The translations under genes were made by a program, and so were the position numbers. DNA of 33,269 nt from Burkholderiaceae bacterium. Its GTDB lineage: Bacteria; Pseudomonadota; Gammaproteobacteria; Burkholderiales; Burkholderiaceae_C. Every line of letters begins with the position of its first letter. Position 1 is the stretch's first letter. The stretch is from positions 1 through 33,269 of the forward strand of contig JAURWR010000116.1 of the NCBI GenBank assembly GCA_030654805.1. The letters run 5' to 3'. The notes under the pieces were generated by a model, which searched no databases, had not been told where the DNA came from, and saw only the letters and a list, made by a program, of their open reading frames with translations. Below, in pieces: positions 6,491 through 24,500 of this stretch.

Positions 6491-6976
6491 ATGCAACGCC
6501 GCGTACAACAAGGTTTCACACTCATTGAATTGATGATCGTCGTCGCGATCATCGGCATCCTGGCCGCGGTCGCGCTGCCGGCTTATCAGGACTACACCCT
6601 GCGAGCCAAGGTGTCTGAAGTGGTGTTGGCGGGCTCGGCTTGCCGCACCACCATCACTGAAGTGATCCAGTCGAACTCCAGCGACGCGAACCCGGCAGCT
6701 GACACGTGGGGCTGCGAACAGAACCCCACTGAGGATGCGGCCAGCGCCCCGACCAAGTACGTCTTGTCTGTCAAGACCAGCGATGCTGGTGTGGTCACTA
6801 TCAAGGCGCGTGGCACGAATAACGTCGATATCGATGGAAAGACGATCACGCTGACCCCCTACTTGAACGACACCACTCCGATCGGAACCGCTGATGTCGG
6901 GGTCCCCGTTTACAAGTGGGTTTGCGCTCCTGGCGACATGCTCGCGAAGTTTCTGCCGGGTTCTTGCCGCGGCTGA
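6491..6976 (+). CDS. pilA: Type IVa major pilin (prepilin)
   Basis: 161 residues from the ATG at 6491, chosen because AAGGAG (6479-6484) sits just upstream and because it gives a normal 8-residue prepilin leader. An in-frame start at 6383 would place 36 extra residues before the leader. The PilD cleavage/N-methylation site is QQG/FTLIE with Glu at +5, followed by the long hydrophobic assembly helix. Four cysteines follow (51, 75, 145, 159); the last pair should close the C-terminal D-loop. The protein ends GSCRG, and a Ser beside the last Cys recalls the O-glycosylated C-terminal Ser of some Pseudomonas pilins (analogy only). It heads a module with two PglL-like ligases and a TfpX-like protein. 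It should be regulated by RpoN and closed by the terminator at 7000-7023. Confidence 0.95.
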
Positions 6977-6999
6977 TGGAATCTTGATTTGATTCCCAG

Positions 7000-7023
7000 G
7001 GGCGGCCGGGAGGCCGCCCTTTT
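7000..7023 (+). terminator. Rho-independent terminator after pilA
   Basis: GGGCGGCC (7000-7007), loop GGGA, GGCCGCCC (7012-7019), followed by TTTT. The 8-bp all-GC stem begins 24 bp after the pilin stop and only 20 bp before the next ATG. It should make the pilin message abundant and discrete, with partial read-through into the ligase gene. Confidence 0.85.
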
Positions 7024-7042
7024 CTGTTTCTGGGCTTGCCGC

Positions 7043-8731
7043 ATGTCTTTCGTCACCCTCGTGTTTGCAGCCTCCCTCGCGCTGGCGGCTTGGTTGACAC
7101 CGAATCACTACTTGCCATGGGTCTCCTACTTCGGCGAGGTGACGATGGCATTCGCGCTGGTGCTTGCCGCTGGCGGGGAGCTGGCGCGCAGCCGCTTTGC
7201 CCGCGTCGAATTCACTCCGCTGCTGACGGCCACCGCGTTGCTGGCCGGGGTGCCGCTGCTGCAGTTGGCCCTGGGCCAGATCCCGTTTGCCGGCGACGCC
7301 TGGATGCCGTTTCTGTACCTGCTCGGCGCAGCCATCGCGATCGACCTCGGCCGCCGGCTGGCCGCGCGCGAGGGCGCGGTCGCCGTGCTGGAGACGCTGG
7401 CCGGGCTGCTGGTCGCGGCCTCGCTCGTCTGCGTGGGGCTGGCGCTGTACCAGTGGCTGGGCCTCGAAGGGCTCGGCATCCTGTCGATCGACGTGCCGCC
7501 GGGCCACCGACCTTTCGCGAATTTCGGGCAACCGAACCACCTGGCCACGCTGCTGTTCCTCGGCCTGGTCGGCACGCTGGTGCTGCACGAACGGGGTCGG
7601 CTGAACGGGCCGGTCACCGCGCTGTGCGCGGTGTTCATCGAGTTCGGCATGTCGATGACCGGTTCGCGCACGGCCTGGCTCGTGACCGCGGCGCTTGTGC
7701 TTGGAATCCTGCTTGCGCAGCGGCGGGCGTCGCTGCGGCTGTCGCGCGCCGGCGGCCTGGCGCTGGGCGTCGCATTCATCGGGCTGCTGGTGGCCTGGCA
7801 ACCACTCAACGACTTGCTGCTGCTCTCGGGCGGTCGCAGCTTCGTGAACCAGGTGCAGGTCGGGCCCCGGCTGCTGCTGTGGCAGACGGCGGTCGATGCG
7901 ATATCGAGCCGACCCTGGTTCGGCTACGGCTGGAACCAGGGGCTGGTGGCACAGGCGCAGGTGGTGATCGACCACCCGGCCGGCGGGCGGTTGATGGGCA
8001 ACGCCCACACGCTGCTGCTCGACCTGATGCTGTGGAACGGCGTGCCGCTGGGTGCTGCGGTGTTCGGCTTTCTCGCCTGGTGGTGGTGGCGTCATGCGCG
8101 CACCTGCCGCGACGCCACGGCGTTCTACCTGCTGGCGGCGATCTCGGGGGTGCTGGTCCACGCGCTGGTCGAGTACCCGCTGAGCTACGCCTATTTCCTG
8201 CTGCCGGTCGCGCTGATGATGGGCGCGCTTGACCAGCACGGCGGTGCCAGCGCGCGCTGGCGCGTGGCCGCACCGTGGGCCTGGGTCGGCACGGCGGTGG
8301 CCACGGCACTGCTGACGATCACGGTGATCGACTATGCGAAGGTCGAGTCCAGCACCCAGGTGCTGCGCTTCGAGGTTGCGCGCATCGGGACCGGGCGCAT
8401 CCAGAGCGTCGCACCGGACCTGCGGGTGCTGACGCAATGGGGCGCTTACCTGAGGTTCGCGCGGATGGAGGAGCCGCGCACCGACTTGTCGGCCGATGAA
8501 CTGGCCTGGATGCGCGCCGTGACCGAACGCTTCCCTTACGCGGAGTCCCAGATGCGCAGCGCGCAGGCGCACGGCCTGAACGGTCGGCCCGATGTTGCCG
8601 CGCTCGAATTGCAGCGGCTGTGCAGCCTGCAAACCGCCAGACGCTGCAAGCAGCAACTGGCGGCATGGAAGGCGCTGGTCGCCACGACGTCACCACAGCT
8701 CGCGGCTGTGACGTTGCCGCGGATTCCGTAG
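7043..8731 (+). CDS. PglL-type O-oligosaccharyltransferase / O-antigen-ligase-like membrane protein (first copy)
   Basis: 562 residues from the ATG at 7043; the longer frame to 6989 would run through the pilA terminator. About eleven to twelve hydrophobic segments fill residues 1-430, followed by a C-terminal soluble region. It has the Wzy/WaaL/PglL hallmarks: FANFGQPNHLATLL (about 155-170), PWFGYGWNQ and the large periplasmic loop motif NAHTLLLDLMLWNG (Asn320, His322). PglL enzymes transfer lipid-linked glycans onto Ser/Thr of periplasmic proteins, and the gene directly follows pilA, so pilin is the likely acceptor. A WaaL or polymerase role cannot be excluded by sequence alone. No good Shine-Dalgarno is seen, in keeping with low expression. 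The C-terminal part contains a motif-poor Ala/Arg-rich helix region ending in a Cys pair. Confidence 0.87.
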   Translation: MSFVTLVFAASLALAAWLTPNHYLPWVSYFGEVTMAFALVLAAGGELARSRFARVEFTPLLTATALLAGVPLLQLALGQIPFAGDAWMPFLYLLGAAIAIDLGRRLAAREGAVAVLETLAGLLVAASLVCVGLALYQWLGLEGLGILSIDVPPGHRPFANFGQPNHLATLLFLGLVGTLVLHERGRLNGPVTALCAVFIEFGMSMTGSRTAWLVTAALVLGILLAQRRASLRLSRAGGLALGVAFIGLLVAWQPLNDLLLLSGGRSFVNQVQVGPRLLLWQTAVDAISSRPWFGYGWNQGLVAQAQVVIDHPAGGRLMGNAHTLLLDLMLWNGVPLGAAVFGFLAWWWWRHARTCRDATAFYLLAAISGVLVHALVEYPLSYAYFLLPVALMMGALDQHGGASARWRVAAPWAWVGTAVATALLTITVIDYAKVESSTQVLRFEVARIGTGRIQSVAPDLRVLTQWGAYLRFARMEEPRTDLSADELAWMRAVTERFPYAESQMRSAQAHGLNGRPDVAALELQRLCSLQTARRCKQQLAAWKALVATTSPQLAAVTLPRIP

Positions 8732-9704: not shown

Positions 9705-11547
9705 CATCGTGAGCGCTGCGGGTCGGCCTGACCCGAATCCTTCTTCGATGTCGCGCTGCGAGGCTTCACCTGGCGACCCGGTGTGGCTCACCGTCACCGC
9801 CTGCCTGGCGGTCGTGCCGGCGGCGCTGCTGGCCGTCAACCTGCCGCCTTCGGCGACCTTTCTCAACCAGGCGGCAGCGGTCTCGGGATGGGGCCTGTTT
9901 TGTGCCGTTGTGGCGTGGCGTCTGGCGCCCGCACCGTCGGGCACGTCGGTGCGCTGGGGCGCTGGTCTGAAGGCGCTGTTGGCTGCGCTGGTGTTGTTGA
10001 TGTTGGCCTGTGCGGGTTCGTGGGCGCTGACCGGCCTGCCGGCGTCGCTGGCGCTGTCAGCGATCGGGATGCTGTCGGCGGCCGGGCTGGTGGCTTGCGT
10101 CGGTGCGGCGGCGATGTCTGCCGGCCAGGGTGCAGCGGCTTTTCGTGCGCTGTGCTTGGCGCTGGTGGTGGCGGGCCTGCTCAGCGTGGCCGTGGGCGCG
10201 GTGCAGGTGTTTGCGCCGCACTGGGCCGATGGGCAGTGGATCGCCATCACCGTGTTGGAAGGGCGCGCTGCCGGCAACCTGCGACAGCCCAATCACCTGA
10301 GCAGCCTGTTGCTGTGGTCGTTCATCGCTGCGCTGTGGCTGGCCGAATCGATGGACGGTGCGCGGCTCGCCGCTCGGCCGGGACGCTACACCGGCCTGCT
10401 GGTTGTGGTGCTGGTGCTCATCTTCGGTTTGGTGTTGAGCGCCTCGCGCACCGGCATGCTGGGTGTGCTGGCGTTGGCTGTCTGGGGCGCGCTCGATCGC
10501 AACCTGTCGCGTCGAACCCGGTTGCTGCTGTGCCTCTCGCCGTTGATCTATGCGGTGTGCTGGGTCGGCCTGACGGTCTGGGCCGATGCCAGCGGCCATG
10601 TCTTCGGCGGCGCCGCGCGACTGCGCAGCGAGGCCGACATCTCCAGTTCGCGCTTCGGCATCTGGGCCGACACGCTGGGCCTGATCGCGCAGCGGCCGTG
10701 GTTCGGTGTCGGCTGGGGTGAGTTCAACCTGGCGTGGTCGCTGACGCCGTTTCCCGGGCGGCCGGGCGCGTTCTTTGATCACACCCACAACCTGCTGCTG
10801 CAATTCGTGGTCGAGCTGGGTGTGCCGCTGGCGCTGGTCGTGACGGCGCTGCTGACCAGGTCGTTGTGGCTGGCCTGGAAGGCCGGTGGCGTGACAGAGG
10901 CCGAGCGCGGCCGCGCACCGGCCGCGCTGGTGCGGTTTGCCTGGATGATGGTGTTGCTGGTGGCGTGGCACAGCCTGCTCGAATACCCGCTGTGGTACGC
11001 GTACTTTCTGCTGCCGGCCGCCTTGGCCTGGGGGCTGTGTCTCGGCGTCGAACCGCAGACGGTGCGACCGACGAACCCCGCATCGGCTGCGCGTACTCCC
11101 GCCAGGCCGCTCTGGTTCGCCTCGATGGCGCTGACCGCGGGCGGCGCGTTGTCGGTGATCGACTACATCCCGGTGGTGGCGATCTTCGCGCCCGGTGACG
11201 AAGCCCCGCCACTGGCGGAACGGATCGCCGAGGGGCGGCGCAGCGTGCTGTTCTCGCATCACGCCGACTATGCGGCGGCCACCACCCGCGCCGCACCCGC
11301 CGAGGTGCTGCGCGCCATGGAAGGAGCCCGGCATTTCCTGCTCGACACGCGGCTGATGACGGCTTGGGCGCAGGCGCTGGCCGACAGCGGCGATGTCGAG
11401 CGGGCGAGGCACATCGCCGCGCGGCTGCGCGAATTCCACAACCCGGCATCGATGGAGTTCTTCGCGCCCTGCTCGGAATACTCGACGCCGGCGCCGTTCC
11501 AGTGCGCGCCGCCGGCCACCGTGATGGATGACCGGGATTTCCGCTGA
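9688..11547 (+). CDS. PglL-type O-oligosaccharyltransferase / O-antigen-ligase-like membrane protein (second copy)
   Basis: 619 residues from GTG at 9688; a second in-frame GTG at 9697 is possible. The first ~30 residues are hydrophilic, then about eleven hydrophobic segments follow. Family motifs are present: LRQPNHLSSLLLW (Asn202, His203), SRTGMLG, PWFGVGWGEFNLAW and FFDHTHNLLLQFVVELG (His365 and His367 in the large loop), and HSLLEYPLWYAYFLLPAALA. The C-terminal domain ends with a Cys-containing ECFAPCSEYSTP-like segment characteristic of PglL homologues in Burkholderiales. It has the same architecture as the ligase at 7043-8731 but diverges strongly from it in sequence. One enzyme may serve pilin and the other another acceptor or glycan; which is which cannot be told here. 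Only 57 bp separate it from the GT41 gene. Confidence 0.87.
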   Translation: MNSVADIVSAAGRPDPNPSSMSRCEASPGDPVWLTVTACLAVVPAALLAVNLPPSATFLNQAAAVSGWGLFCAVVAWRLAPAPSGTSVRWGAGLKALLAALVLLMLACAGSWALTGLPASLALSAIGMLSAAGLVACVGAAAMSAGQGAAAFRALCLALVVAGLLSVAVGAVQVFAPHWADGQWIAITVLEGRAAGNLRQPNHLSSLLLWSFIAALWLAESMDGARLAARPGRYTGLLVVVLVLIFGLVLSASRTGMLGVLALAVWGALDRNLSRRTRLLLCLSPLIYAVCWVGLTVWADASGHVFGGAARLRSEADISSSRFGIWADTLGLIAQRPWFGVGWGEFNLAWSLTPFPGRPGAFFDHTHNLLLQFVVELGVPLALVVTALLTRSLWLAWKAGGVTEAERGRAPAALVRFAWMMVLLVAWHSLLEYPLWYAYFLLPAALAWGLCLGVEPQTVRPTNPASAARTPARPLWFASMALTAGGALSVIDYIPVVAIFAPGDEAPPLAERIAEGRRSVLFSHHADYAAATTRAAPAEVLRAMEGARHFLLDTRLMTAWAQALADSGDVERARHIAARLREFHNPASMEFFAPCSEYSTPAPFQCAPPATVMDDRDFR

Positions 11548-11604
11548 GCCGTCGCACCGCGACAGAATGCATCCCGCCGCACCGGCCTGACGAAACACGC
11601 ACCC

Positions 11605-13716
11605 ATGACTTCCCACGATGGATCTGCCGTTGCAGACCTGGATCGCCTCGCCCGACTGCATGCGGCGGGACAGCAGCCGCAGGCCATCGCGCTGGCGACC
11701 GAACTGACTCGGCGGATTCCCCACCACGCTCTTCCTTGGAAGGTCCTGGGCTCGATCTTTCAGGGTGCGGGGCGCCTGCCGGAAGCGCAGCAGTGTCTGG
11801 AATCAGCGCTGAAGATCGCCCCCGATGACGCCGAAGTCAACAACACGCTTGGTGTGGTCTACCTGTCCCAAGGTCGGCTGGACGTGGCGCAGGCGCACTT
11901 CACGAAGGCGGTGACGCTGCAGCCGAAGATGGCCTCGGCTTTCGGCAACCTGGGCATCACGTTGCACGCGCAGGGCGACTTCCGTGGCGCCGAGGCGTGC
12001 TTCCGGGATGCGCTGGCCCTTGTACCGAACAGCCCGCAGAACCTGGCCAACCTGGGTGCCATCCTGCAGGCGCAGCGCCGCCATGCCGAGGCACGTGCCT
12101 GCTTCGAACACGCGCTGGCACGGGCTCCGCAGATGGCTGGAATCCACTGCAATCTCGGCCTGATGTGCATCGAGATGCGCCTCTGGGATCAGGCCGAAGC
12201 CGCTTTCAGAAAGGCCATCGAGCTGCAACCGCAACTGCATCAGGCTCACGAAGGGCTGGGGCGACTGCTGGCAGAAAAAAAGCAATGGGCTGCAGCCGAA
12301 GCCAGCTGCCGGCGGGCCCTGGCGATTGCCCCCCGAGATCCGTCGAGCTTGGCGCAGCTGGGCCTGGTGCTCAGCGAGTCGGGGCGATTGACGGAGGCTG
12401 CCGCGTGTCTGCGCGAGGCCATTCAACTCAAGCCCGACGATGCCTACATCCGCAGCAACTACCTGTTCTGCCTGACACAGGACGAGGACGTCAGCTGGGA
12501 CGAGCTGTTCGAGGCACACAGGGCGTTCGGCGCCCATTACGAAGCGCCTGATCGCGTCCATCCGGAGGCGCACACCAACAACCGAGACCCGGATCGAAAG
12601 TTGCGCGTCGGTTTCGTTTCAGGCGACCTGCGCAGTCACGCGGTGGCCTATTTCATCCACCCGGTGTGGGCCGCGATTGACCGCGAGCAGATCGAGATCC
12701 TCATTTATCACACCTGCGGCGAGCAGGACTTCGTCACGGCGCGTCTGCGCGAGCACTGCCATACCTGGCGGCAAGTGGAGGCGATGACGGATGACGAACT
12801 GGCCGAGCAGATTCGAAGCGACGGGATCGATGTGCTGTTCGACCTGTCCGGCCACACAGCCTACAACCGGCTGCAGGCGTTTTGCCGGAAGCCGGCGCCG
12901 GTCCAGGTGACCTGGCTGGGCTATCCGAACACCACCGGCCTGCTTTCGATGGACTACATGCTGTGCGATCGATTCAATTCGCCGCATGGTTTGTTCGAGC
13001 GTTACTACACCGAAAAATTCGCTCGCATCCCGACGTCGGGCGCGTTTGTCCAGAACCTCGATGCACCGCCCGTTGGCGAACTGCCGATGCTGGCAAGAGG
13101 ACACGTCACCTTCGGCAGTTTCAACCGAATCAGCAAGCTCGGTGACAAGGTGGTCGCCACCTGGGCGCGCGTGATGCATGGCGTTCCCGGGTCCCGGATG
13201 CTGATCGGAAATGTGTCCGACGAGCAGGTGCGTCGCAGCGTGGTCGAGCGATTCGGAAGTCATGGCATCGCGGCCGATCGGCTGGATCTGCGACCTGCCG
13301 TGCCGCTGAACGACTATCTGCGGCTGCACCACGAGGTCGACATGATCCTGGACACCTGGCCCTACACCGGCGGCACCACGACCAACCACGCGCTCTGGAT
13401 GGGTGTCCCGGTGCTGACCATCCAGGGTCCTTCGCGAGCCCACTGCCAGGCCGCGTCCGGCATGGGGAAAATGGGTCTTCCAGAATGGATCGCGACCGAT
13501 CCCGATGATTTCGTCGCGCGCGCCTTGCGGATGGTCAGCGACCCGGGGGCGCTCGCTGAGTTGCGCTCCGGCATGCGCGCGCGTTGGCAAAGCGAGCCCC
13601 TGCGACAACCCTCGATGGTGGCTCGCGGCCTGGAGGCTGCGGCGCGCCAGATGTGGCAACGCTGGTGTCAGGGGCTGCCCGCTGAGCACCTGGACATCAC
13701 GCTGCCGCTGCCTTGA
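11605..13716 (+). CDS. TPR-repeat glycosyltransferase of family GT41 (OGT/SPINDLY-like)
   Basis: 703 residues. Residues about 1-290 form roughly eight tetratricopeptide repeats with recurring NLG, A-x-x-F/C-x-x-A-L and P-x-x-A signatures. The catalytic half starts near LRVGFVSGDLRSH (333-345), with His345 at the position of the N-terminal catalytic-domain His of O-GlcNAc transferase. It then contains VTWLGYPNTTG, FGSFNRISKLGD (Lys511, at the nucleotide-binding Lys position) and DTWPYTGGTTTNHALWMGVP (Asp583 onward), the donor-binding turn. GT41 enzymes move GlcNAc, or in SPINDLY-type relatives fucose, onto Ser/Thr or onto glycans in the cytoplasm. Bacterial homologues often lie beside flagellin or surface-glycan genes. 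The target here is unknown. The stop TGA at 13714-13716 precedes the acyltransferase ATG by 17 bp, so the two genes are probably co-translated. Confidence 0.92.
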   Translation: MTSHDGSAVADLDRLARLHAAGQQPQAIALATELTRRIPHHALPWKVLGSIFQGAGRLPEAQQCLESALKIAPDDAEVNNTLGVVYLSQGRLDVAQAHFTKAVTLQPKMASAFGNLGITLHAQGDFRGAEACFRDALALVPNSPQNLANLGAILQAQRRHAEARACFEHALARAPQMAGIHCNLGLMCIEMRLWDQAEAAFRKAIELQPQLHQAHEGLGRLLAEKKQWAAAEASCRRALAIAPRDPSSLAQLGLVLSESGRLTEAAACLREAIQLKPDDAYIRSNYLFCLTQDEDVSWDELFEAHRAFGAHYEAPDRVHPEAHTNNRDPDRKLRVGFVSGDLRSHAVAYFIHPVWAAIDREQIEILIYHTCGEQDFVTARLREHCHTWRQVEAMTDDELAEQIRSDGIDVLFDLSGHTAYNRLQAFCRKPAPVQVTWLGYPNTTGLLSMDYMLCDRFNSPHGLFERYYTEKFARIPTSGAFVQNLDAPPVGELPMLARGHVTFGSFNRISKLGDKVVATWARVMHGVPGSRMLIGNVSDEQVRRSVVERFGSHGIAADRLDLRPAVPLNDYLRLHHEVDMILDTWPYTGGTTTNHALWMGVPVLTIQGPSRAHCQAASGMGKMGLPEWIATDPDDFVARALRMVSDPGALAELRSGMRARWQSEPLRQPSMVARGLEAAARQMWQRWCQGLPAEHLDITLPLP

Positions 13717-13733
13717 CGAGAGACCACCAGACC

Positions 13734-14396
13734 ATGTCCGCGACCCGCGTTGTCGTTTTCGGTGCGAGCACCTTCTCGAGCCTGGCCTGGTACTGCCTGA
13801 CGCACGACAGTGAGCACGAGGTCGTGGCGTTCACGGTCGACAGCGCCTTCATGACCGGCAGCGTCCATGAAGGCCTGCCCGTGGTGCCGTTCGAAGACCT
13901 GTCGGTGGCCTGCCCACCCGACGACGTCCAGTTGCTGATCCCGATGGGCTACCAGCAGATCAACGGCCTGCGCCGTGCGCGGTACGAAACGGCCAAGTCG
14001 CAGGGCTACCGATTCGTCAGCTATGTCTCGGGTCGGGCCGGCGTGTGGCCCGACCTGCAGGTCGGCGAGAACTGCCTGATCTTCGACCACGCGATCATTC
14101 AGCCGTTCGCGCAGATTGGCGACAACGTGATCGTGCGCAGCGGCGCGATCGTCTCGCATCACTGCGCGCTGGCCAGCCATGTGTTCGTCTCCGCAGGCGC
14201 CCACCTCGGTGGCAACGTCAGCGTCGGAGAGCAAGCCTTCATCGGCCTCGGTGCCGTGTTGAAGCATGGCTTGGCGATCGCCCCCCAAACTTTCGTCGCG
14301 GCCGGTGCGGTGGTGCTCGCCGACACCGAGGCCGACGGCGTGTACATCGGCAACCCGGCTCGTCGCATCAGCCGCGCGGCCCGCGAAACGATCTGA
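13734..14396 (+). CDS. PglD/NeuD-type sugar O- or N-acyltransferase (left-handed beta-helix)
   Basis: 220 residues from the ATG at 13734. The N-terminal half is a small Rossmann-like domain starting VVVFGASTFSSLAWY. The C-terminal half (about 107-205) is built of hexapeptide repeats ([LIV]-G-x-x-x-x) such as VGENCLIFDHAIIQPFAQIG and SVGEQAFIGLGAVL. The likely catalytic His lies in VSHHCALASH (142-143), at the position of the base in PglD. These enzymes use acetyl-CoA or a related donor to acylate a UDP/dTDP-amino sugar. An aminotransferase of the matching DegT class is encoded 3.5 kb away on the other strand (17906-19027), so the pair could make an N-acylated amino sugar; no dehydratase is in the window. 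It lacks the C-terminal lid of longer sialic-acid enzymes. Confidence 0.85.
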   Translation: MSATRVVVFGASTFSSLAWYCLTHDSEHEVVAFTVDSAFMTGSVHEGLPVVPFEDLSVACPPDDVQLLIPMGYQQINGLRRARYETAKSQGYRFVSYVSGRAGVWPDLQVGENCLIFDHAIIQPFAQIGDNVIVRSGAIVSHHCALASHVFVSAGAHLGGNVSVGEQAFIGLGAVLKHGLAIAPQTFVAAGAVVLADTEADGVYIGNPARRISRAARETI

Positions 14397-14589
14397 GCTG
14401 CTCAATGGCATCACGGACTTGGCGATCATGGAAACCGTGTTCAGCATTTGGGCAAATGAGGTTCGTGCCAACCGTCGAGCGGTGCTGGCTTGGCAGAATC
14501 CCCCGAATTTCCAGGAATCTTCCGCCGAAGCTCGAAGCTGAATCCAACCGCATGACCCAAGCCAGTTGTCCTGTGCATTGCGAGCTGAC

Positions 14590-15645
14590 ATGAAGCCCAC
14601 GCTCTTGTTGTTGAGCGGAGGTTCGCTGGTGGGCGAGAACGTGATCGATGCCCTCGGTGATCGTCGCTCGGCCCTGCGTCTGGTCGCGACCAACACGCAA
14701 CCCTGGGCACCGAGCCTCGCACGGGTGGATCGCGTTTGCCTGGCGCCGCCGACGGCGGGAGACCCGCAGTCTTTCAAGACGTTGTTGATGCAACTGGTCG
14801 AAGAAGAGCGACCGGCTCTGGTGATTCCCTGCCGCGACGATGATGTGCAGTGCCTTGCCCATTGGGCAGGTGATCTGCATGACCTCGGCGCACAGTCACT
14901 GGTGGGCAATCCCGCTGCGGCTGCTCACCTCGTCGACAAGTGGCGCAGCGCGCAGTTTTCGGTGGCCCGGGGCCTGCCATTCGCCCGTTCGGCGCCGGCG
15001 GCCGATCCCCTCGCCGTGGAGGCCTTGCTGGGTGAGGTGGGTTGGCCTCTGCTCGTCAAACCCCGCGCAGGCTTTGCGTCGCTCGGCGTGCGCATCCTGC
15101 GCCAGCGGAGCCAACTGGAGGCGGTGCTGGGCGATCCGGCCATGCTGGTGCAGGAATACCTGGGTTCGCGCGAGGCCCTGGTGAGCTATCTGGATGAACT
15201 GGAGCGCCTGGGCGTCCCGCTTTTCAACAGTTTCGAGGAGTCCAAGTACTCGCTGCAAATCTTTATCGGGCCGGCCGGTGACATCGTTGATCACCTGGTG
15301 ACCCGTCATTCAATGAAGCAGGGCAAGAGCGCCCAGGTCGAGGTCTGGGCAGACGCTGAATTGGATGCCCTGGCATTGCATGCGGGCCGGACTTTTTCCG
15401 AAGCGGGTTGGCGCGGCCCGCTCAATGTGCAATGTCAGCGGTGCCCCGATGGCCGGGTCGCGATCTACGAGTACAACGGTCGATTTACCGGAGCGACCAG
15501 TGCCCGAGCGCTGCTGGGCTACGACGAAGTGGGATGGGCACTGGAGCGGTTTGCCGGCTTGCCACTTCATCGACACGGGAACGATCGAGCCCCCGGGCAG
15601 ATCGTCCTGCGCTCGCCACGCTCATTTCTGAAACCGCCACCGTGA
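14590..15645 (+). CDS. ATP-grasp carboxylate-amine ligase-like protein (carbamoyl-phosphate-synthase-like)
   Basis: 351 residues from the ATG at 14590. The N-terminal domain begins MKPTLLLLSGGSLVGENVID, a pre-ATP-grasp Rossmann unit. The ATP-grasp domain follows, with PLLVKPRAGFASLGVRIL (nucleotide-binding Lys), LVQEYL (hinge), and an acidic metal-binding segment ending EYNGRFTGATSA. It is like the CPSase-large-subunit/PylC type found in glycan clusters. Such proteins join a carboxylate to an amine through an acyl-phosphate, so amidation of a sugar or an aminoacyl attachment is plausible; the substrates are unknown. The 193-bp gap upstream has no clear gene. The last 153 bp are repeated at 16901-17053, and the stop codon (CCGTGA) overlaps a possible GTG start of a truncated downstream frame. 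This copy is full length and should be functional. Confidence 0.85.
   Translation: MKPTLLLLSGGSLVGENVIDALGDRRSALRLVATNTQPWAPSLARVDRVCLAPPTAGDPQSFKTLLMQLVEEERPALVIPCRDDDVQCLAHWAGDLHDLGAQSLVGNPAAAAHLVDKWRSAQFSVARGLPFARSAPAADPLAVEALLGEVGWPLLVKPRAGFASLGVRILRQRSQLEAVLGDPAMLVQEYLGSREALVSYLDELERLGVPLFNSFEESKYSLQIFIGPAGDIVDHLVTRHSMKQGKSAQVEVWADAELDALALHAGRTFSEAGWRGPLNVQCQRCPDGRVAIYEYNGRFTGATSARALLGYDEVGWALERFAGLPLHRHGNDRAPGQIVLRSPRSFLKPPP
15493..15645 (+). repeat. Direct repeat, left copy (3' end of the ATP-grasp gene)
   Basis: Bases 15493-15645 match 16901-17053 with 5 substitutions in 153 bp and no gaps (offset 1,408). The identity ends exactly at the stop codon on the right and falls away at 15487-15493 on the left. 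Differences are at 15501, 15563, 15591, 15613 and 15642; four are silent in the reading frame and one changes Ser to Ala. Confidence 0.97.
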
Positions 15646-15803
15646 CGAGACCGCACCTTCCGGCTGGTAGGCCGCAGGGCAACCTCCGGGTCGGCATTGC
15701 ATCACCCGTCTGGTTGGGCCTGGAGGCGAACCAAGCAATCCACCGTTCTATAAAAGCGCATCGAATTATTATTTCGTGCCATCCGGATCGAAATTTATAT
15801 TGA
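15642..15803 (+). pseudogene. Possible truncated 5' end of a gene cut off by the foreign insert
   Basis: A GTG at 15642 overlaps the ATP-grasp stop (GTGA) and opens a frame reading VTRPHLPAGRPQGNLRVGIA and then SPVWLGLEANQAI, in the same high-GC style as its neighbours. The frame then runs into AT-rich sequence at about 15745 and stops at 15801-15803. The LRVGIASPVW start looks like the first beta strand of a Rossmann or glycosyltransferase fold, but too little is left to identify it. It may be a real gene remnant or chance; the change of base composition at 15745 is the firm observation. Confidence 0.4.
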
Positions 15804-16644
15804 GGGCGGCGAGGGCATTTTTGTATAAGAGTTTAGATAAGGTTTCCCTGGAAAATGGCAGACTTTTAAAATTATCAACGAATGCTTTCACGGGGGTTAA
15901 TGGATACGCAGATCCAAAAAGAAACTTATTTGAAAACCCCTCAAAATCTTTATTTATTGCTCGAAGCCAGTCTTCATGCCCCAAATGCCATAAATAACCT
16001 TCGGGACTCAACCAAATATTATTTCTTCTCATGGCCATCACAATAGCCTCTCTTACATAGGGATAACATCCGTGGGCGCATATTATCCTCAAAGAGGGAA
16101 ATTTTTCCGCTATGATTTCGATATGGTGAGGATCAGCATAGTTTAAATACTTCCCGCCTTTCAGCCCTGAGGTTTGAATTATGATGGTGCAGTTCAATTC
16201 CTGAAGCAGTCTGTAAAGATCATCAAGACTCTCATCGGAAGGGTAACAACCAGGTGCTCTGCCAGGCTCTATGCTGAAAACATTTATTCCCAATTCATAA
16301 TGGCATCTCAGGACTTCGTCGAGGCAATGGTGAAAATTATTGCTTACATCTAAACCCCCGCAAGCGATGAATTTTTTCGGGTGCCGTTTTTGAATTTCTG
16401 CAAGTTCATCGTTACTTGTCGTGCGATCCGAAAAATTGTATTTCCCTAGTGTGGCGCCTGGATTAAATCCGGATGCGGATACTGCCATCGTGATGCCTGC
16501 TTCTTCTATTTCCTTGAAGAAGGAATCCTCCGTCCCTTCCCTTAAAGACTCTATCAAGTGAAGTCTTCCATTCTTGCTGAGTTGCTCTCTGTAGTAATCG
16601 GCTGATTTGCCGCCTGTAAATCTGCATCTGACATCGATTATCAT
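15769..16644 (-). CDS. Amidohydrolase-fold (TIM-barrel) protein with altered metal-site motifs
   Basis: 291 residues; ATG at 16642-16644, with a weak GAGG upstream. The fold is recognisable from MIIDVRCRF at the start, IICAHGCYP (His191) and FLFGSAYPLTP near the end, as in Amidohydro_2 proteins. The usual DxHxH is replaced by Asp4-x-Arg6-x-Arg8, and the expected GSDYP Asp is Ala246, so the binuclear or mononuclear metal site is largely missing. Some amidohydrolase relatives are known to me with similar R-x-R and G-[ST]-A-Y-P features, so this may be a distinct subfamily and not decay; that is recollection. Codon use (many AAA, ATT, TTT, AGA) is unlike the rest of the window, which points to recent transfer from an AT-richer donor. 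The frame is intact and has no internal stops. The substrate is unknown. Confidence 0.75.
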   Translation of the reverse strand: MIIDVRCRFTGGKSADYYREQLSKNGRLHLIESLREGTEDSFFKEIEEAGITMAVSASGFNPGATLGKYNFSDRTTSNDELAEIQKRHPKKFIACGGLDVSNNFHHCLDEVLRCHYELGINVFSIEPGRAPGCYPSDESLDDLYRLLQELNCTIIIQTSGLKGGKYLNYADPHHIEIIAEKFPSLRIICAHGCYPYVREAIVMAMRRNNIWLSPEGYLWHLGHEDWLRAINKDFEGFSNKFLFGSAYPLTPVKAFVDNFKSLPFSRETLSKLLYKNALAALNINFDPDGTK

Positions 16645-16900
16645 TTTCGCTCAAGCCTCATTGCTTGTTTGTTTTCGAGAATAAAGACAATGGATCCGTG
16701 TGGTTTGGACTTCATTTCTTATCGATCATTCGGTGGCTCATGGGGTGAGCATTCGAGGTTCAACTCCAATCCGGCGCGAAATTGCTCAGCCGACAAGGCT
16801 GAGCGGAAAGCAACTCTTGCATGTCGCATGTCGCATGCCGACTGGAGCAGTCGCGTGTGAGCGTGCCGACGGTGTCGGGGGCGCGAGGCAAACAATCGGG
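16645..16900. other. Right flank of the foreign insert, no gene seen
   Basis: Composition shifts from AT-rich (to about 16740) back to GC-rich. It holds a perfect 8-bp inverted repeat GCTCAGCC/GGCTGAGC (16784-16791 with 16797-16804, 5-nt loop) and a short tandem GCATGTC run at 16818-16836. On the minus strand the hairpin is followed by AATTT, too weak to call a terminator. The region upstream of the amidohydrolase ATG should contain its promoter, but no clear -35/-10 pair could be chosen. Confidence 0.5.
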
Positions 16901-17053
16901 GCGACCAGCGCCCGAGCGCTGCTGGGCTACGACGAAGTGGGATGGGCACTGGAGCGGTTTGCCGGCTTGCCCCTTCATCGACACGGGAACGATCGAGCTC
17001 CCGGGCAGATCGTCCTGCGCGCGCCACGCTCATTTCTGAAACCGCCACCTTGA
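16901..17053 (+). pseudogene. Orphan 3' tail of the ATP-grasp gene (right direct-repeat copy)
   Basis: This 153-bp copy encodes the last 50 residues of the ATP-grasp protein (ATSARALLGYDE to FLKPPP) and keeps its frame and stop. It has no start or upstream domain of its own. An open frame from 16700 runs into it, but those upstream codons look like nothing known. The tail stops 2 bp before the PhyH ATG, so it marks the original junction between an ATP-grasp gene and PhyH. Confidence 0.9.
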
Positions 17054-17055
17054 GC

Positions 17056-17865
17056 ATGATCACGCATGCTGCGACAGACAACATGACTTACCACCGAGAC
17101 GGGTTTCACATCGCGCGCCAGGTCCTGTCCTCTCGCTACCTCGATGCCCTGGAACATGCCATTTTTGAACCCATCGCGTTGCAGGCTGCGCACGTGCTGG
17201 GGCGTCGGTTCACGATCGAGGATCCCCTGGCCGTGCGCCAAGCGCTCATGCGCGATTTGAAGGAACAGGCACCCGACCGGTATCTCAGTGCGCTGAAGGT
17301 CTCGCAACTGGATGTCGCGGTCTTGTCTGCCGCGGCTGAACCGGCGTTGCAGGCCGTGCTCAGGGACCTCGGACTGCAGCATCCCGTCGTGGCCCTGAAG
17401 CCGTACCCCATCGTCATCGCCGCCGACTTGCACTTCGAGGGTGGGTACAACATTCGTCCGCCTCACCAGGAGTGGCCAGTCATGCAGGGTTCGCACAATG
17501 GCCTGGTGGTCTGGTTTCCTTTGCACGATGTGGGCGAAGAGCACAGCAGCTTGGATATGTACCCGGGAAGTCATCTTGGCGGCGTCTTGCCTTACGACGT
17601 ATCTCGCTGCGGGTCCAGAGTGCATGACTCTGCGCTGACGATGCAGCCGGTGCGCCTGGCTTTGCGTCGCGGTGACCTGGTTGCCTTTTCGGCATTCACC
17701 GTCCATCGCTCCAGCCCCGAAGGCGACGCCTTGCGAGTGGCTTTCAGCATCCGGTTCAATGACCTTGCCGAGCCTGGCTTCATCGACCGCGCCTATCCCG
17801 ATACGTCGAGCTTCAGCATCTCCCGCGAGCCGCTCGACGAACTGGATCACCGGTTCCAGCCGTGA
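17056..17865 (+). CDS. Phytanoyl-CoA dioxygenase (PhyH) family, Fe(II)/2-oxoglutarate oxygenase
   Basis: 269 residues from the ATG at 17056; a second in-frame ATG at 17083 gives MTYHRDGFHIARQVL, which matches the usual PhyH N-terminus better and is a real alternative. The double-stranded beta-helix has the iron ligands His137-x-Glu139 in PPHQEWPVMQGS and distal His217 in FTVHRSSP, with Arg227 (RVAFSIRF) for 2-oxoglutarate. Most PhyH relatives have HxD, so HxE is a small variation known from other 2OG oxygenases. PhyH-type enzymes hydroxylate varied small molecules, and those in glycan clusters are thought to act on sugar or acyl groups. The substrate is unknown. It begins 2 bp after the orphan ATP-grasp tail, pointing to an old ATP-grasp-PhyH operon. 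Confidence 0.88.
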   Translation: MITHAATDNMTYHRDGFHIARQVLSSRYLDALEHAIFEPIALQAAHVLGRRFTIEDPLAVRQALMRDLKEQAPDRYLSALKVSQLDVAVLSAAAEPALQAVLRDLGLQHPVVALKPYPIVIAADLHFEGGYNIRPPHQEWPVMQGSHNGLVVWFPLHDVGEEHSSLDMYPGSHLGGVLPYDVSRCGSRVHDSALTMQPVRLALRRGDLVAFSAFTVHRSSPEGDALRVAFSIRFNDLAEPGFIDRAYPDTSSFSISREPLDELDHRFQP

Positions 17866-17905: not shown

Positions 17906-19027
17906 TCAGCCCGCCCGACAGGACCGGATCAGCTCGATCACCCGCATCACGTCGTCGTCCGGCAGCGCCGGGTAGATCGGCAGGCACAGCACCTCGCGTG
18001 CGGCTTTCGCCGCGTGCGGCAGGTGCTCCGGTGCGGCCGAAGGCAGGTCGCGGTACATCGGCATGTCGCTCAGCAAGGGGTAGAAATAGCGCCGCGCATA
18101 GACGCTCTGCTCGCGCAGGCGCGCATAGACCGCATCTCGGCCGACAGGAAAACCGCTGCCGATGAAGATCGGGTAGTACGAGTGATTGGGTTGTGTGTCG
18201 GGCAACCTGAACGGCAGGCGGATGCCGTCCAGCGAGCGCAGGCCTTCGTCGTACAGGCTCGCGATCTGCGCACGACGCGCGATCAATCGATCGACATGTG
18301 TCAACTGCAGCAGCCCGAGCGCTGCCTGCACCTCGTTCATCTTGCCGTTGATGCCGGCCGCCAGCACGGTCACTTCGTTGGCGAAACCGAAATTCTTCAG
18401 GTGGTCGATGCGCTTCTTGGTCGCTGCGTCTGCGCAGACGATCGCGCCACCTTCGAGGGTCGTGTAGACCTTGGTGGCGTGAAAGCTCAGCACCGACAGG
18501 TCGCCGTGGTTGAGCAGGCTTTCGCCCCGGTACCGCACGCCGAACGCATGCGCGGCGTCGTAGATCACCTTCAATCCGTGGGTGTCGGCGATCTGCTGGA
18601 TGCGATCGACATCGCACGGCGTGCCGTAGCAGTGCACCGGCATGATCGCGGTGGTCCGTGGCGTGATGGCCTGCTCGATGCTCTCGGGGGTCAGGTTGCA
18701 GGTGATCGGATCGATGTCCGCGAACACCGGTGTCAGGTTGTTCCACATCACCGAATGCGCGGTTGCGGCGAACGAGTACGGCGTGGTGATCACCTCGCCG
18801 GTCACCTGCAGCGTCTGCAATGCCGTCAGCAGCCCGAGCGTGCCGTTGGTGAACAGCGACAGATGCTTGATGCCCAGGTGCTCGACCAGCGCCGCTTCCA
18901 GCCGCTGGTGAAACGGCCCGCCGTTGGTCAGCACCTTCGCGTCCCAGATCTCGCGCAGGTACGGAATGAAGTCGTCCAGCGGGGGGAGGAAGGGCTGGGT
19001 GACGTAGATGGGCTTGTCGGCGCTCAC
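17906..19027 (-). CDS. DegT/DnrJ/EryC1/StrS-family PLP-dependent sugar aminotransferase
   Basis: 373 residues. The PLP Schiff-base Lys is Lys186 in SFHATKVYTTLEGG, and the pyridine-nitrogen Asp is Asp157 in IYDAAHAFGV. The N-terminus IYVTQPFLPPLDDFIPYL and the TPYSFAATAHS segment are typical of enzymes that aminate keto-sugar nucleotides (VioA/FdtB/WecE/PglE type). It should turn a dTDP- or UDP-4-keto (or 3-keto) deoxysugar into an amino sugar with glutamate as donor. It converges on PhyH (40 bp between stops) and follows moaC on the minus strand after 45 bp. It is a natural partner of the PglD-like acyltransferase at 13734-14396. The position of the amino group cannot be read from the sequence. 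Confidence 0.93.
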   Translation of the reverse strand: MSADKPIYVTQPFLPPLDDFIPYLREIWDAKVLTNGGPFHQRLEAALVEHLGIKHLSLFTNGTLGLLTALQTLQVTGEVITTPYSFAATAHSVMWNNLTPVFADIDPITCNLTPESIEQAITPRTTAIMPVHCYGTPCDVDRIQQIADTHGLKVIYDAAHAFGVRYRGESLLNHGDLSVLSFHATKVYTTLEGGAIVCADAATKKRIDHLKNFGFANEVTVLAAGINGKMNEVQAALGLLQLTHVDRLIARRAQIASLYDEGLRSLDGIRLPFRLPDTQPNHSYYPIFIGSGFPVGRDAVYARLREQSVYARRYFYPLLSDMPMYRDLPSAAPEHLPHAAKAAREVLCLPIYPALPDDDVMRVIELIRSCRAG

Positions 19028-19072
19028 GGCGTGTCGATGGGTTGAATCAGCGGTCGATTGGACACCATGCCT

Positions 19073-19594
19073 TCAGGCGGGCGCCGTCCAGTCCCCCGAC
19101 TTTCCGCCGTGCTTCTCGAGCACCCGGATCTGCCCCATCACCATGCCGCGGTCGGCGGCCTTGCACATGTCGTAGATGGTGAGCAGGCCGATCTGCACGG
19201 CGGTCAACGCTTCCATCTCGACACCGGTTCGCCCCAGGGTTTCGACCTGCGCGGTGCAGGTGACCCGGCTGGCGGCGCGATCGATCTCGAAGTCGACCGC
19301 CACGCGGGTGATCGGCAACGGGTGGCACAGCGGGATCAGCTCGGCGGTGCGCTTGGCGGCCTGGATGGCTGCGATGCGGGCCACGCCGAGCACGTCGCCT
19401 TTCCGGGCCTGTCCGCCCTCGATCAGCGCCAGCGTGGACGCCAGCATGTGGATCTCGCCACTCGCGCGTGCGATGCGGTGGGTTTCGGCCTTGGCCGATA
19501 CATCGACCATGTGCGCCTGCCCGGTCGCATCGAAATGCGTCAGCGGTGACGCCGACGCAGGCGTGGATGAAGGAACGTCTGCAGGTGCAGTCAT
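19073..19594 (-). CDS. moaC: Cyclic pyranopterin monophosphate synthase
   Basis: 173 residues from the ATG at 19592-19594; a TTG at 19606 would add only four residues and is less likely. After a variable 20-residue start come the MoaC hallmarks: [14 protein letters not shown] (29-42), [15 protein letters not shown] (81-95), GVEMEALTA (124-132) and [12 protein letters not shown] (140-151). The Lys and His residues in these motifs form the active site. MoaC converts the 3',8-cyclo-GTP product of MoaA into cyclic pyranopterin monophosphate, the first pterin intermediate of molybdenum cofactor synthesis, in the cytoplasm as a hexamer. No other moa gene is near. It is divergent from bepA, and a TATGAT at 19627-19632 (minus strand) could be its -10 box. 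Confidence 0.96.
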
Positions 19595-19779
19595 GGTGCG
19601 AAACAAAGCAGCAAAGTGAGGCTGGCATCATAGTGAGCCCATGCGCTGAAGCCAGCCGGCTGCGGCCTTGCGAGCGACGAACCTGAACTCAACGGCGTGC
19701 CAGTGGTCTCACCGTCGCCTCTGCTGCGAAAGTCCCCTTGACCCACATCCCTTCCACCGCCTGCGATCCTCACGCAGCC

Positions 19780-21483
19780 ATGCGCCCGGCAGCCGTTGTT
19801 CGGGACGCGTCGCGGCCGTTGCTTCAGCGAGTGATGGTGGGCCTGCTCGGCGTGTCGCTGTTCGGCAGCGTGGTGTCGCCTGCGGCCCAGGCGCAGGTGA
19901 ACCTGCCGGCGCTGGGTGACACCGCTTCCGAGGACTTCAACATCGGCACCGAGCGGCACCTGGGCGACGCGATCATGCGGGACATCCGGCGTGACCCCGA
20001 TTACCTCGACGACCCGATCCTGCTGGAGTACCTGCAGTCGCTGTGGCAGCCGCTGCTGGCCGCCGCCCGACTTCGGGGTGACCTCGGCGAGGAACTGAGC
20101 CAGCGCTTCGCCTACCAGCCTTTTCTGGTGCGCGATCGCAGCGTCAATGCGTTCGCACTGCCCGGCGGCTACATGGGCGTGCACCTGGGGCTGATGGCGA
20201 TCACGCAGACTCGCGATGAACTGGCGTCTGTGATGGCCCACGAGATGACCCACATCAACCAGCGCCACATCGCGCGCGGCTTTGCGAACAGCAAGCGGCA
20301 GTCGTTGATCAGCGCCGCAGCCATGATCATCGGCGTGCTGGCGGCCACCCGATCGGGTGGAGGCGACGCCGCCAACGCGATGATCGCCGGCGGTCAGGCC
20401 GTGGGCATCCAGGGGCAGTTGAATTTCTCTCGCGACATGGAGCGGGAGGCCGACCGCATCGGCTCGCAGATGATGTCCAGCGCCGGCTTCGAGCCAGCGG
20501 GCATGGCGTCGATGTTCGAGCGGCTGCAGCAGTCCTCTCGCCTCAATGACAACGGCGGCTATCCGTACCTGCGCAGCCACCCGCTGACCACCGAACGCAT
20601 CGGCGAGGCGCGGGCCCGTCTCGGGACGGCCGGCCTCACATCGACACCTCCACTGGTGAGCTCGCCGTCGACGGCGCTCGAACACAGCGCCGCGCTGGCC
20701 CGGGCTCGCGTGCTGATGGACACGCGCGTGGATTCTTTGCGCCGCTGGCAGGGCCTCGATGGCGAAGGCCGTGCCGCCGTTAACGCGACGCTGTCCGAGC
20801 GCTTCGCCGACGCCTATTCCAGTGCATTGGCATCGAGCCTGCTGCGCGACTGGGCGCGTGCCGACGCATCGATGAAGAAGGCGCTGGACGTGGCCCACGG
20901 CGGATCGACGGCGGTGGCTTCGATCGCCGACGTGGCCGCAGCGGGTGCGTTGCCTCAACGCGACCTGCGTGCCGAACGATCGGTGACGCTGTTGAGGGTG
21001 GAGTCGCTGCTTCAACGCGGTGAACCGGTGCAGGCCCAGGCTGCGCTGGCACCGCTGATGCGGACCGTCGGCCCGCTGGCGCCCGATGCCTCCACCACCT
21101 CGCGTCCGGTCATGCTGCTGAACGCCCGGATCGCGCTGGTTCCAGGGCGATCCCAGGACGACAGCCCGCCGCTGCGATCGAGTGCGGACCAGTTGCAGAC
21201 CTGGGTGGCAAGCTACCCGGACGATGCCGAGGCCTGGTCGATGCTGGGTCGTGTCTCCGCGCAGCTCGGATGGGCGCTGCGGTCATTGCGCGCCGAAGCC
21301 GAGTCACGCTATGCGTCGGGCGACCTGCCAGGTGCGATCGACCGGCTGAAGGCTGGTCAGCGCCTGGCCCGCAGCGGCAGCAGCGCGGTCGACTTCGTCG
21401 AGTCCTCGGTCATCGATTCGCGGCTGCGCACGATCGGGGCGCAACGCCGTCAACTTCTCACGGAACAATTGGGGTACCAGTAG
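19780..21483 (+). CDS. bepA: BepA-like M48 metalloprotease, periplasmic
   Basis: 567 residues from the ATG at 19780; an upstream TTG (19738) is less likely because it pushes the signal sequence inward. A signal peptide with cleavage at about AQA/QV (38/39) exports it to the periplasm. The zinc motif HEMTH (154-158) is in SVMAHEMTHINQRH, with the third ligand expected in EREADRIGSQ. The C-terminal third is helical and Ala-rich, like the TPR domain of BepA/YfgC. In E. coli BepA promotes correct LptD and BAM assembly and degrades stalled outer-membrane proteins; the same role is inferred here. It is followed after 19 bp by the alpha-2-macroglobulin gene, so both probably belong to one envelope operon. 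Confidence 0.93.
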   Translation: MRPAAVVRDASRPLLQRVMVGLLGVSLFGSVVSPAAQAQVNLPALGDTASEDFNIGTERHLGDAIMRDIRRDPDYLDDPILLEYLQSLWQPLLAAARLRGDLGEELSQRFAYQPFLVRDRSVNAFALPGGYMGVHLGLMAITQTRDELASVMAHEMTHINQRHIARGFANSKRQSLISAAAMIIGVLAATRSGGGDAANAMIAGGQAVGIQGQLNFSRDMEREADRIGSQMMSSAGFEPAGMASMFERLQQSSRLNDNGGYPYLRSHPLTTERIGEARARLGTAGLTSTPPLVSSPSTALEHSAALARARVLMDTRVDSLRRWQGLDGEGRAAVNATLSERFADAYSSALASSLLRDWARADASMKKALDVAHGGSTAVASIADVAAAGALPQRDLRAERSVTLLRVESLLQRGEPVQAQAALAPLMRTVGPLAPDASTTSRPVMLLNARIALVPGRSQDDSPPLRSSADQLQTWVASYPDDAEAWSMLGRVSAQLGWALRSLRAEAESRYASGDLPGAIDRLKAGQRLARSGSSAVDFVESSVIDSRLRTIGAQRRQLLTEQLGYQ

Positions 21484-21502
21484 ACAAGGCCATCGAGGCG
21501 AG

Positions 21503-24500
21503 GTGCACGTGGTACGAGCTTGGATCCGGAGGTGGGGACCTGCGCTGCTGGCGCTCGCGACGTTGACCAGCATCGCTGCCGATGCCGCGACGATCGTCAA
21601 CGTCAGCCCGCAGGGCGAAGTGGCGCAGGTGCGGCAGCTGGCGGTCACGTTTTCCGACGCGGTCGTCGCCTTCGGTGACCCGCGCCTGCCCGATCCGATG
21701 GGGGTGTCCTGCGCGGGTGCCTCGGCCCGGGGCACAGGACTCTGGACCAGCGATCGCCACTGGGTCTTCAACTTCGAGCAGCCGCTGCCGCCCGGTGTGC
21801 GCTGCGTCGCACAGGTTCGTACCGACTGGAAGCCGCGCGTGGCGGGTGCCGCCGCCGATGCTGCTCTGACCGGCACCAGCTCTTTCAGCTTCAGCACCGG
21901 CGGGCCGGCGGTGGAATCGATCCAGCCCTTCGACGGCGCGACGATCGAGGAGGACCAGCACTTCCTGATCGACATCAACGGTGCCGCCACCGACAGCAGC
22001 GTCGCGGCCCACGCCTGGTGCGAGGTCGAGGGACTCGGCGACCGGCTGCCGGTGCGTATCGTGACCGGTGCACTGCGCGAGCGCATCGTCGCGGCCGCCG
22101 GTCCGCGTGCGCTGAAGGATGCGAAGCGCGAGGCCGAGCGCCAGTCGCGGCTGATCGTGCTGACCTGCCCGCGGCCGCTGCCGAGCGACACACCGATGCG
22201 CCTGGTGTGGGGCCGCGGCATCGCTGCAGCGGTGAACCCCGGCGTGGCGACGCGCGTCGAGCAGCGTTTTGCCTACCGGGTGCGCCCGGCCTTCAAGGCC
22301 GAGTTCAGCTGCGAGCGTGAACGCGCCACCGCGCCCTGCCTGCCGATCCGCCCGCTCGTGCTGCGGTTTTCCGCGCCGATCGATCGCAAGCTGGCCGAGC
22401 AGGTGCGGCTGGTTCCGGCCGGTGGCAAGTCGATCGCGCCGGTCTTCGACAAGGACGACAAGGACCCCGAGGTCAGCTCCATCACGCTCGCGCTGCGGGT
22501 GGCTGAGAACGCGGCCTACACGGTCGAGCTGCCGTCGAACCTGAAGGATGCCGCAGGGCGCGTGCTCGCGAACGCCGGCGCGTTCCCGATGAAGGTGAGC
22601 ACGGGTGACGCGCCGCCCATCGCCAAGTTCCCGGCCGCCCCGTTCGGGATCGTCGAGCGCTTCGGTGACGCGTCGAGTCCGGGCGCAGCATCGGCACCGC
22701 CGCCGATGCTGCCGCTCACCCTGCGCCATGTGCAGGGCGATCTGCGCTCGTCGGCTCCCGGCGGCGCGGTTCGGGTCAAGCGACTTCAGTCCGATGCCGA
22801 GATGCTGGCCTGGTACGACAAGCTGCACCGCTTCCACGAGTCCGAGCTCAGTGCCCAGGAGGCCGGCCTGCCGAAGGCGCAGTGGGTCACCACCGAGTCG
22901 CTCGTCGACGAGCGCGGACGATCCACCCGGCAGCAGGTCGAGCGCCGTGTCCAGACGCGCACGCTGTCGCTGCTGAAGGCCGACACCAGCGCGAAGCGAC
23001 TCGATCTGCCCCAGCTGAACGGCGGCGACCCGCGTCCGTTCGAGGTGGTCGGCCTGCCGCTCGCGGAGCCGGGCTACCACGTGGTCGAGATCGAATCGGC
23101 GCGCCTCGGTCAGTCGCTGCTCGATCCGCGTGCGCCGATGTATGTGCGCACCGGCGTGCTGGTTACCAATCTCGGGGTGCACGTGAAGCTCGGCCGCGAG
23201 AACAGCGCGGTGTGGGTCACCTCGCTCGACCGCGGGCGGCCGGTGGAAGGCGCCGACGTGGCGATCAACGACTGCTTCGGAAAGCGGCTGTGGGCCGGTC
23301 GAACCGATGCGCGCGGCCTGGCGATCGTCAAGCTCGCCCTCGATCTGCAGGTCGGCGAATGCCCGAACGAAGCGGGCTACTTCGTGACCGCCCGCAAGGC
23401 CGATGCCGACCCGCGCGCGCCCCAGGTGATCGACACCGCCTTCGTGTTCACCAGTTGGCAGAAGGGCATCGAGCCGTGGCGCTTCAACCTGCCGACCGGC
23501 AACGGCTCCGAGCGCGATGCCGTCGCCCACACGGTGTTCGACCGAACGCTGCTACGCGCTGGCGAAACGGTTTCCATGAAGCATTTCTTGCGCGCCGAAA
23601 CCTCGGCGGGTCTCGCGCCGTGGGATGCCGCTTCGCTGCCCACACGCATCAAGATCGTCCACCAGGGCAGCGGCCAGCAGATCGTGCAGCCTCTGCTGTG
23701 GAACGGCACGCGCCACGCGCTGTCGACCTGGAACATCCCGCCGGCTGCCAAGCTCGGCCTGTACGAGGTCATGCTGGAGCGCGATGTCGTCAACGAACGC
23801 CATCGCAGCAGCTGGAGCAGCGGCAGCTTCCGTGTTGAGGAGTTCCGGCTGCCGCTCGTCGATGCGCGCCTGAGCGGTCCGAGCCAGGTGCCGATCGCGC
23901 CGCGCGAGTTGCCCTTGAGCGTGCAGATGGCCTACCTGTCGGGTGGCGCGATGGCGAAGTCGCCGGCGGCGGTGTCGGCGCTGCTGAAGCCGCACGTGCC
24001 GGCCTTTCCCGGCCACGACGGGTTCAGCTTCGAGCCCCCGCGCGAGGCGGCTGCGGACGGCGACTCCGAAGACGAAGCCGCCACGGCACAGGGCGCGGAT
24101 CGGCTGGTCGCCGACAAGCTCCCGCTGACCACCGATGCGCAGGGCGCGGCCACGGTGTTGCTCAAGGACCTGCCGCCGCTGACGCGCCCCAGCGAACTGC
24201 ACAGCGAGCTGACCTACACCGACCCGAACGGCGAGATTCAGACGGTGTCGAGCCGCATCGACCTGTGGCCGAGTGCGGTGGTGCTCGGCATCAAGACGCG
24301 CGCGTGGGCCAGCCAGCGCGGCGGCAGTGTCCAGTTCAATGTGCTGGCGCTCGACACGCGCGGCCAGCCGATTCGCGGCCAGCGCGTCGAGGTGCGGGGC
24401 CGCCTCTCGCAGACGCTGAGCAACCGGACCCGCATCGTCGGCGGCTTCTACGCCTACGACAACCGCACCGAGCTGAAGGACCTCGGCGTGGTCTGCAGTG

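Follow-up and report, generated by a model that had tools for sequence, protein, structure and literature searches.

The last 157 bp of an ATP-grasp ligase gene are present twice in the window (the whole stretch of DNA analyzed, 33,269 nucleotides, which is one whole contig of a Burkholderiaceae genome), and between the two copies lies a gene for an amidohydrolase-like protein whose history differs from that of its flanks. Our data suggest that this structure is probably the scar of a one-sided recombination event in a variable surface-glycan gene cluster. The surrounding genes encode an O-antigen-ligase-type protein, a GT41 glycosyltransferase, a NeuD-type acetyltransferase, the ATP-grasp ligase, the amidohydrolase-like protein, a PhyH-family dioxygenase and a DegT aminotransferase, and the cluster looks like one of surface-glycan or glycosylation type. 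The features of the locus are listed below; the sister is genome G001, from the same genus.

13713-14396, + strand: NeuD-type sugar acetyltransferase (TIGR03570 above its cut-off; 89% amino acid identity in the sister; part of a left flank common to the sister genome)
14566-15645, + strand: intact ATP-grasp ligase gene, carbamoyl-phosphate-synthase-like (likely start ATG 14590; 87% amino acid identity in the sister)
15489-15645, + strand: left repeat copy, the 3' end of the intact ATP-grasp gene (repeat search)
15646-15768: spacer from the ATP-grasp stop to the amidohydrolase stop (G+C host-like as far as about 15720)
15769-16644, - strand: amidohydrolase-like gene (PF04909), convergent with the ATP-grasp gene (GC3 0.42)
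16645-16896: upstream spacer of the amidohydrolase gene, present once in the genome, ending at a putative non-homologous junction (16896/16897)
16897-17053, + strand: right repeat copy, the truncated 3' end of an ATP-grasp allele, with its stop codon (TGA, 17051-17053) kept
17056-17865, + strand: PhyH-family dioxygenase gene (PF05721, E 2.1e-11, run on 17044-17865), its ATG 2 bp past the stop of the right copy
17906-19027, - strand: DegT-type sugar aminotransferase (88% amino acid identity in the sister; part of a right flank common to the sister genome)

The intact ATP-grasp gene matched the NCBIfam model PRK12767-like with E 1.2e-37 and 129.5 bits, below the family cut-off of 218. The repeat search found its end again without gaps and with six mismatches, at a spacing of 1,408 bp; the longest exact run within the 157 bp is 62 bp. 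The earlier note had described a 153-bp version at the same offset (15493-15645 and 16901-17053, five differing positions), which is confirmed and extends to 157 bp. Across the window, at seed 14 and minimum 45, only one other direct repeat is listed, of 49 bp at 71% identity, so that a chance origin of the long repeat is excluded. Five of the six differences between the copies are synonymous and in third position, and the remaining one changes S to A. With all codon positions equally likely, at least five third-position differences out of six would occur with P = 0.018, a value based on six sites only. The pattern is a weak hint that both copies may have diverged while coding, although the left copy alone, lying in a working gene, would show a third-position excess anyway; within the limits of six sites, it weakens the view of the right copy as a decayed duplicate of the left. 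The sister backs neither copy consistently: its letter is that of the right copy at 15492 and 15501, that of the left copy at 15591 and 15613, and that of neither at 15564, while site 15642 lies outside the ungapped match and, in a MAFFT alignment, has the letter of the right copy in the sister.

At its downstream end the right copy meets the PhyH gene exactly as had been noted before, and this junction (TGA-gc-ATG) looks like that of a native operon. A 117-aa frame with a GTG start also occupies 16700-17053, in frame with the right copy and ending at the same stop; it could keep PhyH translation coupled, or be due to chance.

The amidohydrolase-like gene is the only ORF of at least 100 aa wholly between the copies, in agreement with the single opposite-strand gene seen earlier. 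Its 291-aa product belongs to PF04909 (Amidohydro_2; E 2.3e-20, 74 bits against a cut-off of 26.4), and its nearest solved relative is 3irs (E 7.4e-51). Its GC3 is 0.42, compared with 0.72 for ATP-grasp, 0.74 for PhyH, 0.86 for NeuD and 0.87 for DegT, which supports a compositionally foreign core of the segment. The low G+C had been thought to cover the whole 1.25 kb between the copies; in 40-bp steps it is real from about 15760 to about 16720-16760, but the edges of the segment are host-like (15640-15719, and from 16840 on). Amidohydro_2 proteins usually carry N-terminal HxH metal ligands, and an Asp is usual near the C-terminal end of the family. The HxH ligands are absent here, the motif I-x-D-x-R-C-R being invariant at that place in all 12 aligned sequences, and the alignment has A, S or C at the position of the Asp. 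From these residues, the protein may bind no metal.

Among 14 other genomes of the genus, only the sister has the locus at high score (ATP-grasp and DegT genes), and it has neither the structure of the window nor an empty site. Its contig matches the window DNA at 83% over 11523-15631 and at 87-88% over 17906-27621. Between these flanks it carries a convergent amidohydrolase gene (75% DNA identity), then a WbqC gene and a hexapeptide transferase gene, then the same DegT gene; WbqC and the transferase thus stand where the window has the second gene end and PhyH, and the sister has a single ATP-grasp end and no PhyH match. The junction of the two convergent genes is also unlike that of the window, since the sister amidohydrolase frame passes its expected end and continues into the ATP-grasp end with an overlap of 24 bp (L029, 5878-6891 against 6868-7947). 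The sister WbqC ORF (L029, 5253-5894) matches only positions 1-110 of a 218-position profile, so it may be broken or misassembled.

The genes of the locus do not share one history. Comparing window and sister at fourfold sites, identity was 0.858 in ATP-grasp codons 1-260 (148 sites) and 0.726 in DegT (179 sites), against 0.353 in the amidohydrolase between them (85 sites; Fisher P = 3.7e-15 against the ATP-grasp body). Furthermore, in 27 of the 28 pairs among eight loci the amidohydrolase was the better conserved of the two partners, the exception being the pair of window and sister (79% for the amidohydrolase vs 87% for ATP-grasp). Together these data indicate that simple descent from the ancestor common to the two genomes does not account for the two amidohydrolase alleles. 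Each is nevertheless the closest neighbour of the other in a tree of 13 sequences (support 95); an old allele swap would fit, and so would separate imports of the alleles from related donors of low G+C. The ATP-grasp end is also divergent (codons 261-359, 0.667 over 45 sites; P = 0.008 against its own body). At sites differing between window and sister, eight outgroups favoured window, sister and neither in 7, 7 and 7 cases for codons 1-260, and in 10, 4 and 12 cases for the end, a slight sign that the sister end may be the more changed one. Since the divergence from the sister is common to both copies in the window, it gives no date for the event.

The amidohydrolase is commonly accompanied by an ATP-grasp gene. 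A scan of genome contigs gave seven relatives at 66-81% identity, sister included, and in all seven, from several phyla, a homologous ATP-grasp gene (37-87% identical to that of the window) adjoins the amidohydrolase gene. We took four more distant relatives as well, with neighbours established by tblastn throughout. ATP-grasp was adjacent in two (L051 and L052, 49-51%) and lacking nearby in the other two, L053 (45-46%, on a 6.8-kb contig) and the Hydrogenophaga plasmid L055 (42-43%), which makes nine of 11 outside loci. The reverse did not hold: no amidohydrolase relative was found in five other ATP-grasp stretches (32-40%; L036, L037, L048, L049 and L050, the last only 3.6 kb long), and the tie therefore runs from the amidohydrolase to one kind of ATP-grasp. 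The trapped gene is thus the usual partner of that kind of ATP-grasp, in the sister as elsewhere, and we reject the view of it as an unrelated foreign passenger. The proposal that a foreign gene had been captured by an ATP-grasp-PhyH operon stands as regards composition, separate allele history and the native-looking PhyH junction, but not as regards the relation of the gene to its neighbour.

The pair (L028-L034, L051, L052) is often near glycosyltransferase genes, and its two frames overlap by 4 bp in Pseudohoeflea (L034) and in G530 (L051). By tblastn, none of the nine loci carrying the pair has a truncated second ATP-grasp end, and two of them (L032 and L051) have a further ATP-grasp paralogue. 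The source genome itself has a second ATP-grasp gene elsewhere (L036, 2728-3897, on contig C126 of G000), 38% identical; the sister has a counterpart of this second gene, and the two are 78% identical.

All three genes are rare in the samples searched. ATP-grasp was found in four of 399 genomes of the family at 1e-15, and the amidohydrolase in four of 399 genomes of the order at 1e-60, the source genome included in both counts; in a sample of 295 genomes of the Algoriphagus family, the amidohydrolase was present in one, the genome at the centre of the sample itself. PhyH was absent from the 14 other genomes of the genus at 1e-3, and beyond its own genome was found at 1e-25 in a single genome, 31% identical, among 369 of the class, and in seven plasmid records (at most 32.8%). 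It also gave no match at 1e-8 in seven genomes, the sister and the six of the other amidohydrolase relatives, where an empty answer shows little.

We infer an event of the following kind. Two related strains would have differed in the module that follows a common ATP-grasp gene: the partner amidohydrolase in one, and in the other PhyH, starting 2 bp past the ATP-grasp stop. One strain would then have received DNA from the other, in either direction, so that either the amidohydrolase or the PhyH side could be the newcomer. Homology, within either the ATP-grasp gene or the DegT flank, would have guided the joining of one end. The other would have been joined illegitimately, without homology, at 16896/16897, leaving no more than the final 157 bp of the second ATP-grasp allele. 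The product would be both alternative downstream modules in a row, together with a second, truncated gene end. The same product would also result from a single crossover involving a small circle that bears the gene end and the amidohydrolase. Consistent with this reading, the new DNA is flanked by a partial duplication of the target gene end, one copy within the intact gene and one truncated, the segment differs from its flanks in history, the third-position differences are as expected of alleles of a working gene, and PhyH starts directly behind the gene end. On the other side, only one relative with the locus is available for comparison, and the window and sister amidohydrolases, being mutual nearest kin, would also fit a gene long shared by both whose alleles were replaced later. 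No genome was found in which PhyH directly follows this ATP-grasp gene, which leaves the second parent hypothetical.

The same repeat could have arisen in situ, by a tandem duplication or a template switch that copied the gene end within one lineage, the copies diverging afterwards. The gapless alignment of 157 bp at 96% identity is what such an event would leave. However, a simple duplication leaves the separate history of the amidohydrolase unexplained, and old repeat copies tend to collapse through recombination, as a pair of this age should have tended to do. That all but one of the differences are synonymous, though the right copy is a fragment, is a further, weak argument, and we consider an origin in situ rather unlikely.

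An assembly chimera of two strain haplotypes would join just such modules of two strains, and the assembly (3.87 Mb in 131 contigs, 3.87% contamination, with the window as one whole contig) leaves room for it. Yet the sequence before the right copy does not overlap the ATP-grasp gene at the corresponding point, and hence there is no shared stretch that would invite a false join; moreover, the window is free of N, and the genome has just one copy of the spacer upstream of the amidohydrolase gene. We therefore regard a chimera as unlikely.

A dedicated mobile cassette or switch using the gene end as its site of integration and excision is very improbable: the unit of 1,408 bp is flanked by repeats and its loss would leave the ATP-grasp frame intact, but between the copies there is no recombinase-sized ORF besides the amidohydrolase, the upstream spacer occurs once in the genome, neither the segment nor the region has a plasmid DNA match and the repeat has no phage DNA match, the two proteins have no viral-contig relatives, the amidohydrolase-like protein has a single plasmid relative, 42% identical and with no ATP-grasp within 7 kb on either side, and the sister carries the amidohydrolase without a second gene end. 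By ORF and inverted-repeat searches, neither a recombinase gene nor the defined ends of a transposon, integron cassette or integrative element were identified, in line with the earlier remark that no transposase or integrase is visible. No inverted repeat of at least 16 bp pairs the two borders of the segment; small inverted repeats lie inside the right spacer, the best being an 8-bp hairpin at 16784-16804. Promoter and terminator scans were close to chance (two found against a shuffle mean of 1.7, and three against 2.0), and the single Rfam match was far below the gathering score. Joined across the copies, the window sequence yields an intact ATP-grasp frame of 359 aa followed by PhyH, which agrees, as regards the frame, with the earlier expectation that loss of 1,408 bp would restore the old junction. 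Recombination between the copies could thus remove the segment, as a possibility rather than an occurrence; the further suggestion that the locus switches finds no support, with no recombinase gene between the copies and no empty site seen.

A one-sided recombination scar would belong to the ordinary evolution of a surface-glycan cluster, and to a known kind of event. A broader and rather doubtful idea is that the site behind ATP-grasp is swapped repeatedly, the sister species separately importing partner-amidohydrolase alleles with the gene end as homology anchor, so that the ligase would stay while its partners are exchanged between distant hosts. The pair itself, an ATP-grasp ligase and an amidohydrolase-like protein that lacks the metal motif usual in its family, met in several phyla, may be of more use than the scar. 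Narrow full-text searches for the pair brought up, at most, papers on Leptospira and Sinorhizobium in which each term occurs once, which is no proof that the pair is undescribed, and a search for literature on such gene remnants found none.

Insertion-duplication and homology-facilitated illegitimate recombination have reportedly been treated in papers on Acinetobacter, Pseudomonas stutzeri and Streptococcus. The proposed scar resembles what such laboratory systems produce by single crossover, with homology on one side and copies of the end of the target gene flanking the insert. After E. coli conjugation, a PCR product of the duplication was reported in 56 of 60 Lac- clones, and 14 sequenced clones had lacZ-end duplications of 109-950 bp (157 bp here), which the authors attribute to single crossovers of trimmed circles (PMC3240628). 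The donor is known there, whereas here we infer event, donor and direction. Homology-facilitated illegitimate recombination is described as rare where measured (PMC3240628, PMC5361080), a point against the proposed event. A second likeness is to the T6SS immunity arrays of Vibrio and to orphaned Rhs 3' ends, in which module exchange behind a conserved anchor pushes older 3' material downstream; for the immunity-gene arrays, the authors offer a related explanation, qualified by "perhaps" (PMC5361080). Unlike these, the window has a glycan-cluster enzyme gene and one remnant, and no toxin or immunity gene. Finally, small variable segments flanked by direct repeats have been described, with 10-18% of the segments so flanked (PMC2884548); those were compared among the strains of one species, whereas the window was compared with a sister genome rather than a conspecific strain.
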